This document shows positions 2,396 to 58,368 of a stretch of 64,000 nucleotides of DNA, one piece after another. The stretch is from Sulfurovum sp. Lineage in GTDB: Bacteria; Campylobacterota; Campylobacteria; Campylobacterales; Sulfurovaceae. The notes under the pieces were generated by a model. That model did no database searches. It saw nothing but the letters and a program-made list of their open reading frames with translations, and was not told the origin of the DNA. Where the stretch lies: NCBI GenBank assembly GCA_027081115.1, contig JALWLD010000112.1, positions 124,001-188,000 of the forward strand, read 5' to 3'. Each line of letters starts with the position of its first letter. Position 1 is the stretch's first letter. Position numbers and translations under genes: made by a program.

Positions 2396-3691
2396 CTAAA
2401 CAAGTACACCATCAAGTGCACCTCTGGATGTTTTTACGATCTTCACATCCACAATTTTACCAAGTAACTCTTCACTGCCTTCAACAAAGATCAGTTTACC
2501 ATCATCAGAACGACCGGAAACTCTTCCATTGGCTTTCAACTCATCAAAGTAAACCTTATGTACTTTGCCTAACTGGGCATCCATGATCTCATCTAAAATT
2601 TCAGTGTGTCTTTTTTGTAATCTGGTTAGACGTTCTCCTGAGAGCACATTATCAATTTGTGCTTCAAATTCGGCAGCTTCTGTATGTGGTCGTGGAGAGT
2701 ATTTAAACGAAAAAAGCTGTTCAAAACGTACTCTCTCAAGTACATCCATTGTATCTTCAAAATCAGCATCACTCTCACCAGGGAAACCAACAATAATATC
2801 AGTTGAGATAGTTGCTTCAGGGCAAAGTGTACGTATCTTTTCACAGCGATTGATGAAATTCTCTTTACTATACCCACGTTTCATGGCTTTAAGCAGTTTT
2901 GTTGAACCACTCTGCAAAGGTACATGTATCTGCTTACATATCTTCGGATTGGAAGCAAACTCTTCAATAAAGGCATCATCCATATGCAAAGGATGTGGAG
3001 AGGTAAATCTAATACGCTCAAGCCCTTCTATTTTAGAAATTTTTTGTAATAGTTGGGTAAAGTCACAACGCTCTTCACTGCTACCAAAACGTCTACCATA
3101 ATTGTTAACATTTTGTCCAAGCAGCATAACTTCTTTGGCACCTGTATTCACTGCCTTTGTAATTTCCTGTACCAAAAGATCCGAAGGGATCGATATCTCA
3201 TCTCCGCGTGTTGCGGGGACAATACAAAAAGTACATGACTTGTCACAACCTATAGAGATATTCACCATTGCCTTAAAAGGGTTACTTCTGTATTCACCAA
3301 AAGCATAGGTACTTTCATCAAAGTCCGTATCTATTTCTACAGCATGTTTTTTGTCAACCACTTGTGTGATTTTAGAAACATTTCTCGCTCCAATAACAAA
3401 ATCTACGGAAGGTGCACGTTTAATAATATCTTTACCAAGATGACTTGCTGTACATCCTGCCACACCGATCTTTGCACCTTCTTTTTTATGTTTATTAAAG
3501 ACTCCGATTTCTGAGAAAAGTTTTGCTACAGGTTTTTCTCTAACAGAACATGTATTAATAATAATAAGGTCAGCTTGGGAAAGTTCTTCGGTAAGTTCGT
3601 AAGGTTCTTTTTGGTTTAACTCGGCGATCATGTGCTCTGAGTCTCGCACATTCATCGCACAACCAAGTGTTTCAATAAATAATTTTTTCAT
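2396..3691 (-). CDS. miaB: tRNA-2-methylthio-N6-dimethylallyladenosine synthase
   Basis: [16 protein letters not shown]-terminus, radical [18 protein letters not shown]-like C-terminus. Confidence 0.95.
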
Positions 3692-3714
3692 TTTACTCCG
3701 CTACACTTGCCTCC

Positions 3715-3960
3715 TTAGGCAATAATGTGTACTTCGTAGATATATTCGTTATCATCAAGTCCATATTTGACTTCACGCATATAAACAGAGTAACCTTTCT
3801 CTTCGAAATGCTCAATCAACTCTTTAAGCTCTTTATGTGAGTTGTCTTTATCGAAATAAAAAATAGATCTGTTTGCTAGTTCATCTTCGAGTTTTTTCAA
3901 CTCTATAGTTTTTGGTTTTGCTTTGAGTGTTGTTCTAGCAAGTTTTAGTTTCATGTACAT
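3715..3960 (-). CDS. HP0268 family protein (putative small nuclease)
   Basis: 81 aa resembling H. pylori HP0268 (RSIFYFDKDNSHKELKELIEHFEEKGY...EYIYEVHII). Confidence 0.7.
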   Translation of the reverse strand: MYMKLKLARTTLKAKPKTIELKKLEDELANRSIFYFDKDNSHKELKELIEHFEEKGYSVYMREVKYGLDDNEYIYEVHIIA

Positions 3961-4116
3961 TTCCTTGAATATTAGTTACACAGAACCCCTGCAGCTCCCG
4001 TAATTGCTTAGATTATACTTTATTTTCAGTAAAGGTTTGATTAGCTATAATGCTATTCTTCGAAAACAGCACCTCCTTGACGTTCTTAACACTGTTATGT
4101 TACCTCTTGTAGCGGG

Positions 4117-5310
4117 TTGAAATTGAATTTAATTAAGGAATACACTATGGAAAAAATATTAGATATTATTGAGGCAATTGCACACGAAAAAAACATCAGT
4201 AAAGAGCATGCCCTCGAAGCATTTACTGAAGCATTGACAAAAACAGCACAAAAGCTTACAACATTTACTTCTGCATTTGAAGTAAATATTGACCATGATA
4301 CAAAAACCCATTCTGTTAACAAAGTCATCACTGTTGTAGCAGACGGTGACCCTCAGCTTATGGTTGAAGTAGGAAGAGAAGACAACAAAGAAACCATCGA
4401 ATCTGATGCATTCATGGCACTTTCTGAAGCCAAAGAGTATGATGATTCTATTGAAGTAGGCGATCAGCTCAAAGAAGAGTTCATCCTCGAGGATCATGGC
4501 CGTACAGCTTCTGCAAACCTCTTTAGAGAACTTGAATACCACATCCAAAGACGTATAGAACAAGATCTTTTTGAGAAGTACAGAGAAAAAGTCGGTTCTG
4601 TCATGTTGGGTACGGTAAACCGTATCGATGCTGAAGACAACACTCATGTTGAAATTGGTGAGTTGAAAGGTATTATGACACTTAGAAACCGTATTAAGGG
4701 TGAAAAATTCAAGCGGGGAGACAGTATTAGAGCTCTACTAAGATACGTCTCTGTAGACCCACAGTTTGGTCTTTTTCTTGAGCTTACACGTACCTCTCCA
4801 AAATTTTTAGAAGCACTTATGGCTTCAGAAGTGCCTGAAATTTCAGATGGTATCGTTGAAATTGTTGCAGCAGCAAGAATCCCTGGAGAAAGAGCAAAAA
4901 TCGCACTTAAAACAGAACAGATGAATGTAGATCCTATTGGTGCTGCGGTTGGTGTAAAAGGAGTAAGGATCAATGCGGTAAGTGAAGAGCTTAATGGTGA
5001 GAATATTGACTGTATCGAGTACTCGGCAATTCCTGAAATTTTCATTACCAGAGCATTAAGCCCTGCTATTACACAAAGTATTAAAGTAGATCAAGATGAG
5101 AAAAAAGCGATCATCTCTATTACTGGCGATCAAAAAGCCAAAGCCATTGGTAAATCCGGTATCAATATCCGTTTGGCATCTATGTTGACGGGGTATACTA
5201 TTGAGTTAAATGAAGTAGAAGGTGTAACAGAGAGACAGGTTGACTCTTCAGATACTACTGAAACCAATAAGACTACAGATACTACCGCATTGGCTGATCT
5301 ATTTAAATAA
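4117..5310 (+). CDS. nusA: Transcription termination/antitermination protein NusA
   Basis: NusA N-terminus, S1 and KH domains (AARIPGERAKIALKT..DPIGAAVGVKGVRI); true start likely the ATG at 4147 (MEKILDIIEAIAHEK). Confidence 0.95.
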   Translation: MKLNLIKEYTMEKILDIIEAIAHEKNISKEHALEAFTEALTKTAQKLTTFTSAFEVNIDHDTKTHSVNKVITVVADGDPQLMVEVGREDNKETIESDAFMALSEAKEYDDSIEVGDQLKEEFILEDHGRTASANLFRELEYHIQRRIEQDLFEKYREKVGSVMLGTVNRIDAEDNTHVEIGELKGIMTLRNRIKGEKFKRGDSIRALLRYVSVDPQFGLFLELTRTSPKFLEALMASEVPEISDGIVEIVAAARIPGERAKIALKTEQMNVDPIGAAVGVKGVRINAVSEELNGENIDCIEYSAIPEIFITRALSPAITQSIKVDQDEKKAIISITGDQKAKAIGKSGINIRLASMLTGYTIELNEVEGVTERQVDSSDTTETNKTTDTTALADLFK

Positions 5311-53130: not shown

Positions 53131-53535
53131 TTATTTCTTTTTTATCTCAATACTGTTTTTTGTTTTAACAGAGCTTTTTCGATTCTCAAATTTTTCCAAC
53201 TCTTTTTGATGCTTGGCTTTGAGATCTTTTTGTAAACGTTCATACTCTTTGGCTTTCAGTTCAGAAAGTTCTCTTTCAACCTGGTCAATATAGGCATTCA
53301 GCTCATTGATCTGATCCATATAATTTTGACAATTGTTGACAACAGTAGTACTGTAATAGTTGTCTTGATAAACAACACCGGGATTTACAACAACAGGTAC
53401 ATGTGGTGGGCGTACTATTGGATATTCTGGTTTTTCAATAGGCAAAGGGGGTCTAGGAATAGTCTGTTGCATTGTCACTTCAGCAAAAAGTATAGAGGTA
53501 TATAGAGTAAGAAGTATGATCAAAAAAAATCGCAT
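53131..53535 (-). CDS. Secreted Pro-rich/coiled-coil protein, unknown
   Basis: Signal peptide, Pro-rich segment, charged coiled coil. Confidence 0.55.
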   Translation of the reverse strand: MRFFLIILLTLYTSILFAEVTMQQTIPRPPLPIEKPEYPIVRPPHVPVVVNPGVVYQDNYYSTTVVNNCQNYMDQINELNAYIDQVERELSELKAKEYERLQKDLKAKHQKELEKFENRKSSVKTKNSIEIKKK

Positions 53536-53699
53536 AGAGTCTCTCCTTGGAAAGTAAGTATTGATTTAAGAAAGTATAACATAGATAGTAAGAACTGTAT
53601 TGGGTTTCTATCTCATATAACATTGACACAATAGTCTATAGTGATTTTTTAAAAAGTGGGACTTGCATTAATGCTTAAGTGGTGAAGATTTTAAAATTA

Positions 53700-53714
53700 T
53701 TGGTGGAGCATAAC
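53700..53714. repeat. Element-distal att direct repeat
   Basis: TTGGTGGAGCATAAC identical to 58292-58306. Confidence 0.88.
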
Positions 53715-54148
53715 TCCACCTAACTATTACAATAGGTAACGTTATTACAGTTCATAATTAAATTCTAGTCATTAAATAACTACTTAAATGACTACTAATG
53801 TGTAAAAGTAAGGGAGGTCTTATTTAAGGGTATAGCTCTTACATTAAATATTTTATTTCTTTATTTTCCAATGGATTTTTTATGGATTTTTTCACATGAT
53901 CTACTGTCTAATTTGTGTAAAGTTTTTCTTGCGTTCATTCTTGTGTTCATTTGTTCATCGGACAACACGTTCAAAGCCGTGTATATCTTTATTTACGCGT
54001 GAATTAAGTGTTCACTTTACCCTGCAAGTTCCGAGTGTGCCTTTAATACACTATTCACTTTGTTGGGAGTTGCATTTTCTAAAGTAACGCCCACTACATC
54101 ATCTTTTTGGGGTTGCGTTTACTGTTCCTTTTTGTATAACTACACTCT

Positions 54149-54472
54149 CTATTGTTTCGATGCCACAGGTCTTACGGCTGTTCTCTTGCTGTTCCCTTTT
54201 ATTCTGTCTTTATGTGCTTTAAATACATCATCAGGCATTGACAGTATAAAAAAAGTTTCTCTTTCTATCTTCTCGTATTCGGCTCTTTCAATCTGTCGTT
54301 TGGTGATGCTTCTTTTTTGTGTTGGTTTTGTCCATGTACCGTTTTTTCGGCTGTATGAAACCCTGCATAAATTGTGCATCATGTCGCAGATCAAATCAAT
54401 GTCATCATCTAACTTTGCACTCAATTCATAAAATTCTGTAAAAATTTGGTTTCGTTTGTGGGATAACATCAT
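54149..54472 (-). CDS. Hypothetical element protein
   Basis: 107-aa ORF, same strand as other element genes. Confidence 0.5.
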   Translation of the reverse strand: MMLSHKRNQIFTEFYELSAKLDDDIDLICDMMHNLCRVSYSRKNGTWTKPTQKRSITKRQIERAEYEKIERETFFILSMPDDVFKAHKDRIKGNSKRTAVRPVASKQ

Positions 54473-54604
54473 TACACCATTACCTCGTTAGTTTATGGTT
54501 GTTTGTTCACTTCCTTTCTACTTTTAAAAGTGAATTATAAGCAAAGTGCGATACTGACGCTCTCACCGTGCTTATTTGAGGTTTTGTGTAAAATTCTTTG
54601 CCTA

Positions 54605-55294
54605 TTAACTTACGCGTGTGAACATAGACTCTATTTTTACACTTAACCCTGTAGCTTTTTTGATAGTTTTTTCCATCTTTTTATGGACGGTTTCAATATC
54701 TTTTAAAAGTACACCACTTAGGTACTTTGATTTAAAGACAAACTCCAGTCTATAAAGTGGATAATCTAATTTTGCATGAAGTGCTTTATCATAGATTTTA
54801 ATATCCATAAATGGATTAGTCTTTTTCTCTTTGGCTGTTTTGTAGTAAGTAGTGTTCTTCCATGGAAGTGGCGTTCTAATCCTACATAATGCCTTAATAA
54901 TACTCTTGGGTATGTTCCCCTTAAAATCAATGGCTACATCTAACCTTGTTACTTTGGTATATTGTAATCGACTCTCTAACTCCTGCAAGTGTTGCACCAG
55001 TAGCCGTGACCTCTCATTGTAGCCTTGCAGTCCTGCAAACTCTAAAGTTTGGCTCTTGGGAGTGGGTGCAAGGGTTTTGAGTGGTAGCGTTAATCCTAAA
55101 TATGTGTGAATGATCTTGGCTTCAATGATGTTTTTAGTCAATGCTTTACCAAAGGCTGCACTCCATACTTTGGGCTTAAATACGCTTCTACTCTTCACGG
55201 CTTCTATGCTATAATCTTGATGATGAATAAAGACTGCTTCCATAGTTTCACTGGAGAGATTAAGAGAGTCGATATTAACTCTCTTGCCCCTCAT
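54605..55294 (-). CDS. Rep_trans/RstA-like replication initiator (putative)
   Basis: VTRLDVAIDF, DIKIYDKA (YxK), YPLYRLEFVFK (RxE) ordering as in Rep_trans-type proteins. Confidence 0.55.
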   Translation of the reverse strand: MRGKRVNIDSLNLSSETMEAVFIHHQDYSIEAVKSRSVFKPKVWSAAFGKALTKNIIEAKIIHTYLGLTLPLKTLAPTPKSQTLEFAGLQGYNERSRLLVQHLQELESRLQYTKVTRLDVAIDFKGNIPKSIIKALCRIRTPLPWKNTTYYKTAKEKKTNPFMDIKIYDKALHAKLDYPLYRLEFVFKSKYLSGVLLKDIETVHKKMEKTIKKATGLSVKIESMFTRVS

Positions 55295-55589
55295 CTTTAA
55301 ACCACTCTCTTACTTCACGTTTCCATTCAGTAGTTAGTCTAAAAATACCTATTTTTGCTTTTTTACCATTCTCTTTGATCACGGTTCTAGGTTCTGTATA
55401 AAGATTGTCTTTTACTTCCTCATGTGTGACCTTGAAATGCCTTTTAAGCTTCTTTCGTAGGTGTTGTATAATGTCAGGTAAATAGTGACAGTTAAAGATG
55501 TATGCGTGGTGCTGTTGCACTCTGTCATCATCTACCAAACACATCTTTAATATCTTTTCTTCTGTTGGTGTGAGTAGTGGCTTTTTCAT
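55275..55589 (-). CDS. Hypothetical element protein, possible winged-helix regulator
   Basis: LLTPTEEKILKMCLVDDDRVQQHHAYIF... overlaps start of Rep-like gene by 20 nt. Confidence 0.5.
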   Translation of the reverse strand: MKKPLLTPTEEKILKMCLVDDDRVQQHHAYIFNCHYLPDIIQHLRKKLKRHFKVTHEEVKDNLYTEPRTVIKENGKKAKIGIFRLTTEWKREVREWFKDEGQES

Positions 55590-55814
55590 TTAAGCCACCT
55601 CTACACTTGCATTGATAAACGCTTCAAGTTCTGAACGTTTGAAGATTGTTACTCTATCACTTAGCTTGTACGCTTTGAGTTTTCCTTGATTTACCCATAA
55701 CCATACTGTACTAAGTCCACACCCTAAAAACTTGGCTGTTTCCTTTGCTCTCATATTCTCTACTATTGCTGTTTCACTTTGTTTATTGCGACGTTCTGTT
55801 TCTGTATTTGTCAT
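55590..55814 (-). CDS. AlpA/Xis-like MerR-type excisionase
   Basis: MRAKETAKFLGCGLSTVWLWVNQGKLKAYKLSDRVTIFKRSELEAFI. Confidence 0.75.
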   Translation of the reverse strand: MTNTETERRNKQSETAIVENMRAKETAKFLGCGLSTVWLWVNQGKLKAYKLSDRVTIFKRSELEAFINASVEVA

Positions 55815-55821
55815 TTTTGAC

Positions 55822-55918
55822 TTCCTTAATCTATAAGGAACTCAACGCGTTTCGTTCTGGTTTAGTAGGCTATCCCCAATGGATAGTTTGCAACACCTTA
55901 TAATGCATTATAAGGTGT
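55822..55918. promoter_or_regulatory. Cluster of three inverted repeats upstream of the excisionase gene
   Basis: TTCCTTA-ATCTA-TAAGGAA; CTATCC-CCAAT-GGATAG; 26-bp perfect palindrome ACACCTTATAATGCATTATAAGGTGT. Confidence 0.65.
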
Positions 55919-55997
55919 GAAACACTACCTAAAACAGGAAAGTTAAGTCTATGCTATTACACAGTAAAAAAAGTAGGGTAAATCGTGGGAGTCCGTA

Positions 55998-56909
55998 TTA
56001 ATTGGGTTTACTCGTTAGTATTGGCTTAAAATTTTCTTCTATTGCTGTTTGTGTTGTCCATACATTTTTGATTTCTTTTATATGTGCAGGGATATTTTTT
56101 TCAAATTCGACTGAATAATAATCATTTACTTTTTGAAAAAGTGCGTCATGATTATTTTTAATAAAAGAGATAGCCTGTTTACTAAAACTATGTTCTGTCT
56201 TTATCTCTTCTAATGTTATATCGAAAAAAATATCAATTATGGCTAGAGATTGTTTTTTAGTCATCTCTGGAAAATAATACAACAGGTCAAAATGTAAGCA
56301 TTTTAAATAAGCTCTCTCCCCTAATGGTTTTAAGTATGCTTTTGTTTTAGGTCTCAATATTAAATTATTTGTACGTTCTGTATTGTTTACTGTTATCGCA
56401 TCATGTCGTATTTTCTTTGTATTTAAAAATCTTTCTAATATCTCAATAGCAAATTTAAAATTGTTCTTGAGATAATACTTTATAACTCCAGTGTAGTTAT
56501 CTACTATTCTTAAACCTTGCACATTATTAATACTTTTATCTAAATATAAATAGTTATCTAAAAAATCTAAAAAATCATCATCAGAAAGAATATCTTTTAA
56601 TTTTTTTAATTTCTTCCTATGCCCTGTTTCAACTTTGCATAATTCATTATTCATTTTTATATAATATTGGTACTTATTAATAATATCCAACATGTATTTT
56701 ATATTCTTTTCTGCAAACCCCTCAAATACACACTTTTTTTCTTTAAACTCTTGAATAGTACAATCTAAGTGTAAGTACCCATTAATACTCTGATTTTTTA
56801 GTATTGGTAAAGACTTATCTTTCGTCAGTGTTTTAAGTGCTTCTGCATAATCAAAATCAGGTTCTACTTTTGAAGCCGCCCATTCTATAATTACTTCTTC
56901 TATTGTCAT
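55998..56909 (-). CDS. Unknown protein translationally coupled to integrase
   Basis: 303 aa; start overlaps integrase stop by 4 nt (56906-56909). Confidence 0.65.
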   Translation of the reverse strand: MTIEEVIIEWAASKVEPDFDYAEALKTLTKDKSLPILKNQSINGYLHLDCTIQEFKEKKCVFEGFAEKNIKYMLDIINKYQYYIKMNNELCKVETGHRKKLKKLKDILSDDDFLDFLDNYLYLDKSINNVQGLRIVDNYTGVIKYYLKNNFKFAIEILERFLNTKKIRHDAITVNNTERTNNLILRPKTKAYLKPLGERAYLKCLHFDLLYYFPEMTKKQSLAIIDIFFDITLEEIKTEHSFSKQAISFIKNNHDALFQKVNDYYSVEFEKNIPAHIKEIKNVWTTQTAIEENFKPILTSKPN

Positions 56910-58111
56910 TTCTTTACCCCCTCCAAAAAATCAGCGTACCATTGAACAAGCTCTCTCTTCTTCTCTGTATATTCTGCTCTATTGTATGCACCTCTCACTT
57001 TATCTTTTTCAACGTGAGCCAATAACGCTTCTATTACATCACTATCTTTACCGTGTTCATTTGCTATGGTAGAAAACATTGCTCTAAAGCCGTGAGGTAC
57101 TATCTCATCTCCAAAGTCTAAGCGTTTTAGTGCAGAACTTATCGCTACATCTGTAAGAGGTCTTGTCCTACTTAGTGGAGAGTGAAACACATATTTAGCA
57201 TCGTGTGTGTATTGTCCTACCTCTTCGAGTATGGCTATGGCTTGATCACTTAGTGGTAATTTATGCTCTTTGCCTGACTTCATTTTACTTGCAGGGATAG
57301 TCCAAAGTTTTTTCTTTAAATCAAACTCACTCCAAACAGCTTTACGGATATTTGCAGAACGTACAAAAACATAGGGTAAAAAGCGTAAAAGATGTCTTGT
57401 AGTAAATGAACCCTTGTATCCGTCAATTGCTCTCAATAGCTCTCCTATACGCTTAGGCTCGGTAATAGTCTTGTACTCTTCATTTGTAAACTTCTTTAGT
57501 GCTATGGTCTTATCAATGTCCGCTACGATGTTATGCTCCACCTTATCAAACTGTAGGGCATATTTCCATATTTGATTGGCTAAGTTGAGGTAACGGTGTG
57601 CAGTTTCCAACGCTCCACGCTGTTGTACATAAGTAGCGATAGATACCAAATCCCCTTTTGTAACTTTATCAATAGGCATTGCACCTATAAAGGGGTAAAA
57701 ATCTCTCTTTAATGCTCTCTCATATCTCACATAGGTACTTGGTGCTAATTCATCTTTTCGCATCTTTAGATAATCTTCTGCTACATCTTGAAAAGTGTTT
57801 CTAATATCTTTTCGTTTTGCTATCTTTTTCTCTTGCTTCTCCCGTGAGGGGTTTATCCCTTTAGCAACTTTACTTTTAAGCCCTCGATGTATCTCTCTTG
57901 CATCTTTTAGACTTATCGCTGGGTACTTACCAATAGAGTACAAATACTTTTTATTATGAAGTGAAAAGTTATATCTCCATAACTTACCACCCTTTGCAGT
58001 AGCCAGCAAATAAAGTCCTCCACCATCGGGGTATCTTTTATCTTTTAATATGCCGTTATCGTTATTTGGTTTTGCATTTTTGATTGTACGCTCTGTAAGA
58101 GTTCCCATCAT
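56906..58111 (-). CDS. int: P4-type tyrosine integrase
   Basis: LTERTIKNAKPNNDNGILKDKRYPDGGGLYLLATAKGGKLWRYNFSL arm-binding domain; VPHGFRAMFSTIANE, LLAHVEKDKVRGAYNRAEY. Confidence 0.93.
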   Translation of the reverse strand: MMGTLTERTIKNAKPNNDNGILKDKRYPDGGGLYLLATAKGGKLWRYNFSLHNKKYLYSIGKYPAISLKDAREIHRGLKSKVAKGINPSREKQEKKIAKRKDIRNTFQDVAEDYLKMRKDELAPSTYVRYERALKRDFYPFIGAMPIDKVTKGDLVSIATYVQQRGALETAHRYLNLANQIWKYALQFDKVEHNIVADIDKTIALKKFTNEEYKTITEPKRIGELLRAIDGYKGSFTTRHLLRFLPYVFVRSANIRKAVWSEFDLKKKLWTIPASKMKSGKEHKLPLSDQAIAILEEVGQYTHDAKYVFHSPLSRTRPLTDVAISSALKRLDFGDEIVPHGFRAMFSTIANEHGKDSDVIEALLAHVEKDKVRGAYNRAEYTEKKRELVQWYADFLEGVKK

Positions 58112-58291
58112 ATCCCCTAAGTAGTCATTTAGTAGTATGTAAAGTCTAAAATTACTTTATTACTACTCATATTACTACTATTGAGCTTAGATTACTACCA
58201 TACACATTAAACTATGTTAGACTATAAAAGTGGTACAATGTTCGTATATAAGGGGTTTATGTAGATTATATTGAGTAAGTTGGATTGTAGG

Positions 58292-58306
58292 TTGGTGGAG
58301 CATAAC
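58292..58306. repeat. Integrase-proximal att direct repeat within the tRNA-Ala 3' end
   Basis: TTGGTGGAGCATAAC identical to 53700-53714. Confidence 0.88.
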
Positions 58307-58368
58307 GGGATCGAACCGATGACCTCTTCGCTGCCAGCGAAGCGCTCTCCCAGCTGAGCTAATGCCCC
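58293..58368 (-). tRNA. tRNA-Ala (anticodon GGC)
   Basis: GGGGCATTAGCTCAGCTGGGAGAGCGCTTCGCTGGCAGCGAAGAGGTCATCGGTTCGATCCCGTTATGCTCCACCA; loop CTGGCAG. Confidence 0.95.

Follow-up and report, generated by a model that had tools for sequence, protein, structure and literature searches.

The satellites closest to the locus described here are the phage-inducible chromosomal islands (PICI) and the phage-inducible chromosomal minimalist islands (PICMI) of Vibrionaceae, both of which use replication genes of the primase type (PMC10803314; PMC6092414). PICMI115 carries int, iolg (with an ATGA overlap with int), alpA, up1, prim and up2 on 6,110 bp. Its excision needs int, iolg and alpA; it uses rolling-circle replication, and its packaged form is a concatemer (PMC10803314). 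Rolling-circle initiators of the Rep_trans type include pT181 RepD and RepSTK1; in the latter, the nucleophile Y179 is found with K181, the metal ligands are D9, D116 and E196, and R114, A118, D120, Y166 and R194 are conserved (PMC4797284). The subject of this analysis is an element of 4,592 bp in a 64-kb stretch of a Sulfurovum sp. genome (hereafter the window), which is bounded by exact 15-bp repeats at a tRNA-Ala(GGC) gene. The element is probably a minimal member of a phage-satellite-like integrative family of Campylobacterota, the phylum to which Sulfurovum, Sulfurimonas, Arcobacter, Campylobacter and Helicobacter belong. Its layout is that of a Vibrio PICMI in which a Rep_trans-type initiator takes the place of the primase.

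The features shared with PICMI (PMC10803314) are a size of about 5-6 kb, an integrase gene, a gene overlapping it by ATGA, alpA, a small gene, a replication gene and cargo, together with exact flanking repeats and the lack of capsid genes. The two differ in the replication gene, a DUF3987/DUF5906 primase in PICMI and a Rep_trans-type nickase here, in the integration site (fis against tRNA or tmRNA genes), in the hosts (Vibrionaceae against Campylobacterota) and in the terminase genes present in several relatives of the window element. No open reading frame (ORF) of the element matches the DUF3987/DUF5906 primase in Pfam. Without this primase and without a fis site, the element is not a PICMI by definition, and the lack of a primase also sets it apart from a standard PICI. 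Gram-negative PICIs (PMC6092414) have in common with it an integrase, an AlpA-type regulator, a replication gene, a specific attachment site and, in some members, a terminase small subunit (TerS); the window element differs from them in being smaller and in having neither primase nor TerS. By analogy, it plausibly works like a PICMI or a PICI.

This is a real mobile element, integrated at the 3' end of tRNA-Ala. The repeat TTGGTGGAGCATAAC has exactly two copies in the window, one at the far end of the element (53700-53714) and one at the integrase-proximal end (58292-58306), and no third copy is present even allowing one mismatch. The right copy is the 3' end of the tRNA-Ala(GGC) gene (58293-58368, minus strand), the integration target, which is intact according to ARAGORN and element-free in relatives. 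The first-pass annotation had reported this pair of repeats and its overlap with the tRNA, and both the repeat search and ARAGORN bear it out. The chromosomal side of the site (tRNA-Ala, a PpiC-like gene and the sequence beyond) was sought in 78 genomes of the same genus. In G444 (L066), about 20 bp separate tRNA-Ala from the sequence that the window has beyond the left repeat, a homologue of the gene at 53131-53535 included; in G447 (L068), the homologue of this gene likewise lies 3' of tRNA-Ala, and in G407 (L070) the two tRNA-Glu genes come after the tRNA. All three genomes have the neighbourhood of the window without the element genes; the refuting case named earlier, element-free relatives that still carry these genes, did not arise. 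The roughly 110 bp adjoining the left repeat (53588-53699) have no counterpart in G444, so that the exact empty junction is deduced from the repeats. A related element, with an integrase 85% identical to that of the window, occupies the same tRNA-Ala in G219 (L017). Both of its repeats read GATAGTCTCCACCAA, identical to its own tRNA, where the window has GTTATGCTCCACCAA; since the repeats co-vary with the tRNA of each genome, the left repeat derives from the tRNA. At the tRNA-Ala of G460 (L069, about 1168-1265), some 100 bp past the tRNA resemble the int-proximal end of the window element (58194-58292), with neither int nor rep; they are the scar that a lost relative left behind. Within int, at 57530-57542, the attachment core recurs as an inverted 13-bp copy; this was considered as a meaningful site and rejected, as L017 has the same residues with different bases there, and the copy is most likely a coincidence.

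The replication gene, rep (54605-55294, minus strand), encodes a protein of 229 aa, here called Rep, which had been proposed in the first-pass annotation as a Rep_trans/RstA-like initiator. Sequence searches of Pfam, PHROG, NCBIfam and the PDB gave no match; Rep was identified by its fold only. The AlphaFold model, built from an alignment of 29 sequences, reached a predicted local distance difference test (pLDDT) score of 94.9, and its best fold match in the PDB is RepSTK1 (4cij_B, E 6.3e-7, probability 1.00, TM-score to query 0.48). The next matches are TATA-binding proteins with much weaker E-values. The window Rep contains D9, R117-x-D119-x-A121-x-D123, Y150, Y168-x-K170 and R182-x-E184, among which D9, D119, D123, Y150, Y168, K170, R182 and E184 are invariant in the 29 sequences, whose identity goes as low as 14%. 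One match, L029, proved not to be a Rep and was removed from later alignments. With residues paired to those of RepSTK1 by motif and order, not by superposition, Y168 is predicted to be the nucleophile and D9, D119 and E184 the metal ligands. Fold, Y-x-K strand, D/D/E metal site and the R-x-D-x-A-x-D and R-x-E motifs are all shared with the Rep_trans initiators pT181 RepD and RepSTK1 (PMC4797284); the window Rep differs from them in residing on an integrative element, not a plasmid, and in escaping the Pfam Rep_trans model (PF02486). This model matches neither the window Rep nor 16 of its relatives, which therefore constitute a divergent Rep_trans-type family. The fold model and the active-site signature support the proposed assignment of Rep as a Rep_trans-type rolling-circle initiator with presumed nicking activity, and the fold search, which places it with rolling-circle initiators, speaks against the possibility, raised at the outset, that it is unrelated to replication or relaxase proteins.

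Six credible genes lie between the repeats; all are on the minus strand, as had been stated before, in the order int, a 303-aa gene, an AlpA-like gene, a small gene, rep and ORF107. The first (56906-58111, 401 aa) encodes a tyrosine integrase of the P4/CP4-57 type, with Arm-DNA-bind_3, Phage_int_M and Phage_integrase above the Pfam cut-offs and a match to the PHROG 1 integrases. The 303-aa gene (55998-56909, minus strand) overlaps the end of int by 4 bp (ATGA) and occupies the position of iolg in PICMI, by analogy with which it may aid excision. The 74-aa protein encoded at 55590-55814 (minus strand) belongs to the HTH_17/excisionase family (PF12728, 44.5 bits against a cut-off of 27; TIGR01764 excise, at cut-off). 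The AlpA model of Pfam scores under its cut-off, and AlpA-like is therefore the right level of naming. The earlier call of an integrase with an AlpA-like protein thus agrees with the Pfam, PHROG and NCBIfam matches. The small gene (55275-55589, minus strand, 104 aa) overlaps rep by 20 bp, at the position of PICMI up1; its product, possibly a DNA-binding protein, is 72% identical to the protein at the same position of a second G219 element, which has another site and a distant Rep. In the 890 bp past rep there is a single ORF, found in no other genome: ORF107 (54149-54472, minus strand, 107 aa), at the cargo end, for which the 78 genomes of the genus contain no relative. Neither this ORF nor the 303-aa and 104-aa genes have a significant family match in Pfam, PHROG or NCBIfam. 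No structural genes of tailed or filamentous phages were found in the element, in keeping with the former report that capsid and portal genes are not recognisable.

Relatives of Rep are widespread in the phylum. Counting the host, they were detected by sequence in 14 of 397 genomes sampled across Campylobacterota and in 8 of the 78 genomes of the genus, and by profile in 30 of 399 genomes of the order. One genome each of 85,462 prokaryote species yielded 22 Rep loci, all labelled as Campylobacterota or its genera. Most relatives come from metagenome assemblies. At 27 Rep loci whose flanks were read, the genes share an order of integrase, a variable gene often overlapping int, AlpA-like gene, small gene, rep and variable genes. 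An integrase of one linked family is present at 24 of the 27, the other three (L111, L116 and L117) being short contigs, and in L074 it lies on the opposite side of rep. In a distant branch of Rep, int, alpA and rep are kept together at 9 of 12 loci (L133-L138, L142-L144). As in the window, exact repeats mark both ends of eleven other elements; the closed set, the window element included, has sizes from 4.6 to 11.2 kb and occupies tRNA-Ala, -Leu, -Ser, -Met and -Phe and tmRNA genes. The Rep of L018 is about 70% identical to that of the window, but its integrase is not found by BLASTP with the window's; this locus and the 104-aa protein of the second G219 element show that modules have been shuffled among elements.

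As the window element has no terminase gene, its reading as a satellite rests on relatives, several of which carry phage packaging genes behind the same module; these relatives support the first-pass annotation's suggestion of a phage satellite. Terminase small subunits above the Pfam cut-off are located behind rep in L107, L116 and L124. Another, TerS-like family is common to six elements (L017, L018, L020, L021, L073 and L112, some of which carry a second locus number), and five of the six match PHROG 309 (terminase small subunit) at E <=0.01, the best at 9e-13. In the 397-genome sample this family is confined to four genomes, each with a rep gene, and a further member lies beside the distant rep of L144. 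Its structure model is of low confidence (pLDDT 65.7) and was not used for fold search. In L117, a Sulfurimonas metagenome-assembled genome, alpA, the small gene and rep lead a module on one contig (1035-8150), followed behind rep by a gp6-like connector, a head completion protein, capsid, HNH, a TerS-like gene, the terminase large subunit (TerL) and portal. The contig is cut at both ends, and L117 looks from its genes like a capsid-forming satellite or a prophage truncated by the contig ends. In linking genes for connector, capsid, a TerS-like protein, TerL and portal to the alpA-rep core, L117 resembles the capsid-forming PICIs (cf-PICI); the window element differs from these in having no capsid, portal or terminase genes. 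L137 (G032) is a closed 10.0-kb element at tRNA-Ala with TerL and an overlapping small helix-turn-helix (HTH) protein (2576-4490); no head gene is evident among its ORFs. Anti-repressor genes of phage type are present in L112 and L124.

Several results weigh against the satellite reading. The window element itself contains no terminase or other packaging gene. Sequence searches of INPHARED, PLSDB and IMG/VR with its Rep returned no match. In addition, no helper is evident, as the host assembly holds no portal gene (one portal family was tried) and, over its whole length, no Zot gene. A helper phage need not be resident in the host assembly, which consists of 133 contigs with 6.2% contamination.

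If the element is a phage satellite, its cycle can be outlined as follows. The integrase inserts the element into the 3' end of tRNA-Ala, as the repeats and the empty sites show. After induction, a circle would be excised by the AlpA-like protein and the integrase, probably with the product of the 303-aa gene, as deduced from PICMI and PICI. Rep would nick this circle through Tyr168, aided by a metal ion bound at D9, D119 and E184, and rolling-circle replication would then start with the helicase and polymerase of the host. The replicated DNA may be packaged by a helper tailed phage, to judge from the relatives with TerS, TerL or a head module; both this packaging and the dependence on a helper are proposed by analogy. 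Having no terminase of its own, the window copy would use that of the helper, as PICMI115 and cos-type PICIs do, or it may be a reduced form.

Alternatively, the element could be an integrative mobilizable element (IME), in which Rep is a MOBT-like relaxase that nicks an origin of transfer and the circle is moved by a conjugative apparatus present in the same cell. The Rep_trans catalytic core is found in MOBT relaxases too, which serve integrative and conjugative elements (ICEs) and IMEs (PMC6499999; PMC11389934), and the want of a packaging gene in the window copy would fit. However, MOBT proteins of ICEs have a fused N-terminal HTH domain (PMC6499999), whereas the window Rep begins at the catalytic strand with D9; conjugation genes were not recognised in the element or in the flanks examined, and in several relatives the module is followed by genes for terminase, head proteins or anti-repressors. 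This explanation is accordingly regarded as unlikely. Somewhat less likely still is a once-active element that has kept integrase and Rep, lost its terminase and cargo and become immobile. Such a reduction would agree with the absence of TerS, with the single genome-unique ORF in the 890 bp past rep and with the scar at the same site in G460. Against it stand uninterrupted reading frames for int, alpA, the small gene and rep, an exact match of the two repeats and the preservation of the catalytic residues. A satellite or remnant of a filamentous phage (inovirus) was dropped as very improbable: inovirus Reps are among the viral fold matches of Rep and one relative has a weak Phage_CRI match (E 0.005), but the assembly has no Zot gene and the relatives carry terminase and capsid genes of tailed phages.

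The phage-satellite-like family to which the window element probably belongs is widespread and apparently undescribed. No satellite of Campylobacterota was described in the satellite literature searched, which comprised open-licence papers only; such an absence is weak evidence, and the claim of novelty rests on these papers. With slightly more confidence than doubt, the family can be regarded as a distinct, phylum-wide clade of Campylobacterota satellites defined by a Rep_trans-type rolling-circle initiator coupled with int and alpA. Its minimal, TerS-bearing, TerL-bearing and capsid-forming forms would have a single replication core in common, and its origin would lie in rolling-circle replicons, separate from that of the primase-based PICI, PICMI and P4 satellites. 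If this is true, satellites with a Rep_trans-type nickase would link plasmid-style rolling-circle replication to phage piracy. Such elements would be missed by model-based searches of this type, because Rep has no Pfam, PHROG or NCBIfam match and PICMI detection needs a primase. The invariant Rep signature provides a handle for finding them and their defence cargo. Cargo in the relatives includes a Sel1/trypsin protein in L017; downstream of rep, polyvalent-protein domains and a SoFic match were detected in L019 and an AbiD match in L024, the far ends of the last two elements not having been located.

Other observations concern loci with a different setting. In L116, L023, L125 and L126, the element has a dGTPase-like gene on one side and, on the other, an S21-like gene with dnaG after it, and no tRNA was found nearby; this interval is a non-tRNA integration site. 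L139-L141, the remaining three loci of the distant Rep branch, encode Reps of about 305 aa beside DUF932-type and AlpA-like genes, with no integrase of the family nearby, and type I restriction-modification genes are also present in L139 and L140; these three loci are perhaps another kind of element.

A perfect 26-bp palindrome, ACACCTTATAATGCATTATAAGGTGT, is situated at 55893-55918, 78 bp upstream of alpA; like the overlap of int with the 303-aa gene, it is absent from the first-pass annotation. It is likely the operator of the alpA-rep operon, and an origin is its possible alternative role. A dyad in the top 5% of Markov shuffles or better was found within the 220 bp upstream of alpA in 11 of 25 elements, about one being expected. 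These dyads differ in sequence between lineages; in the palindrome search they were rejected on this ground as a common origin or nick site, and they are better read as element-specific operators. The Sulfurimonas elements L116, L117 and L122 share a dyad upstream of alpA, ATACAGTAA-spacer-TTACTGTAT, which is likely to be an operator for a common regulator.

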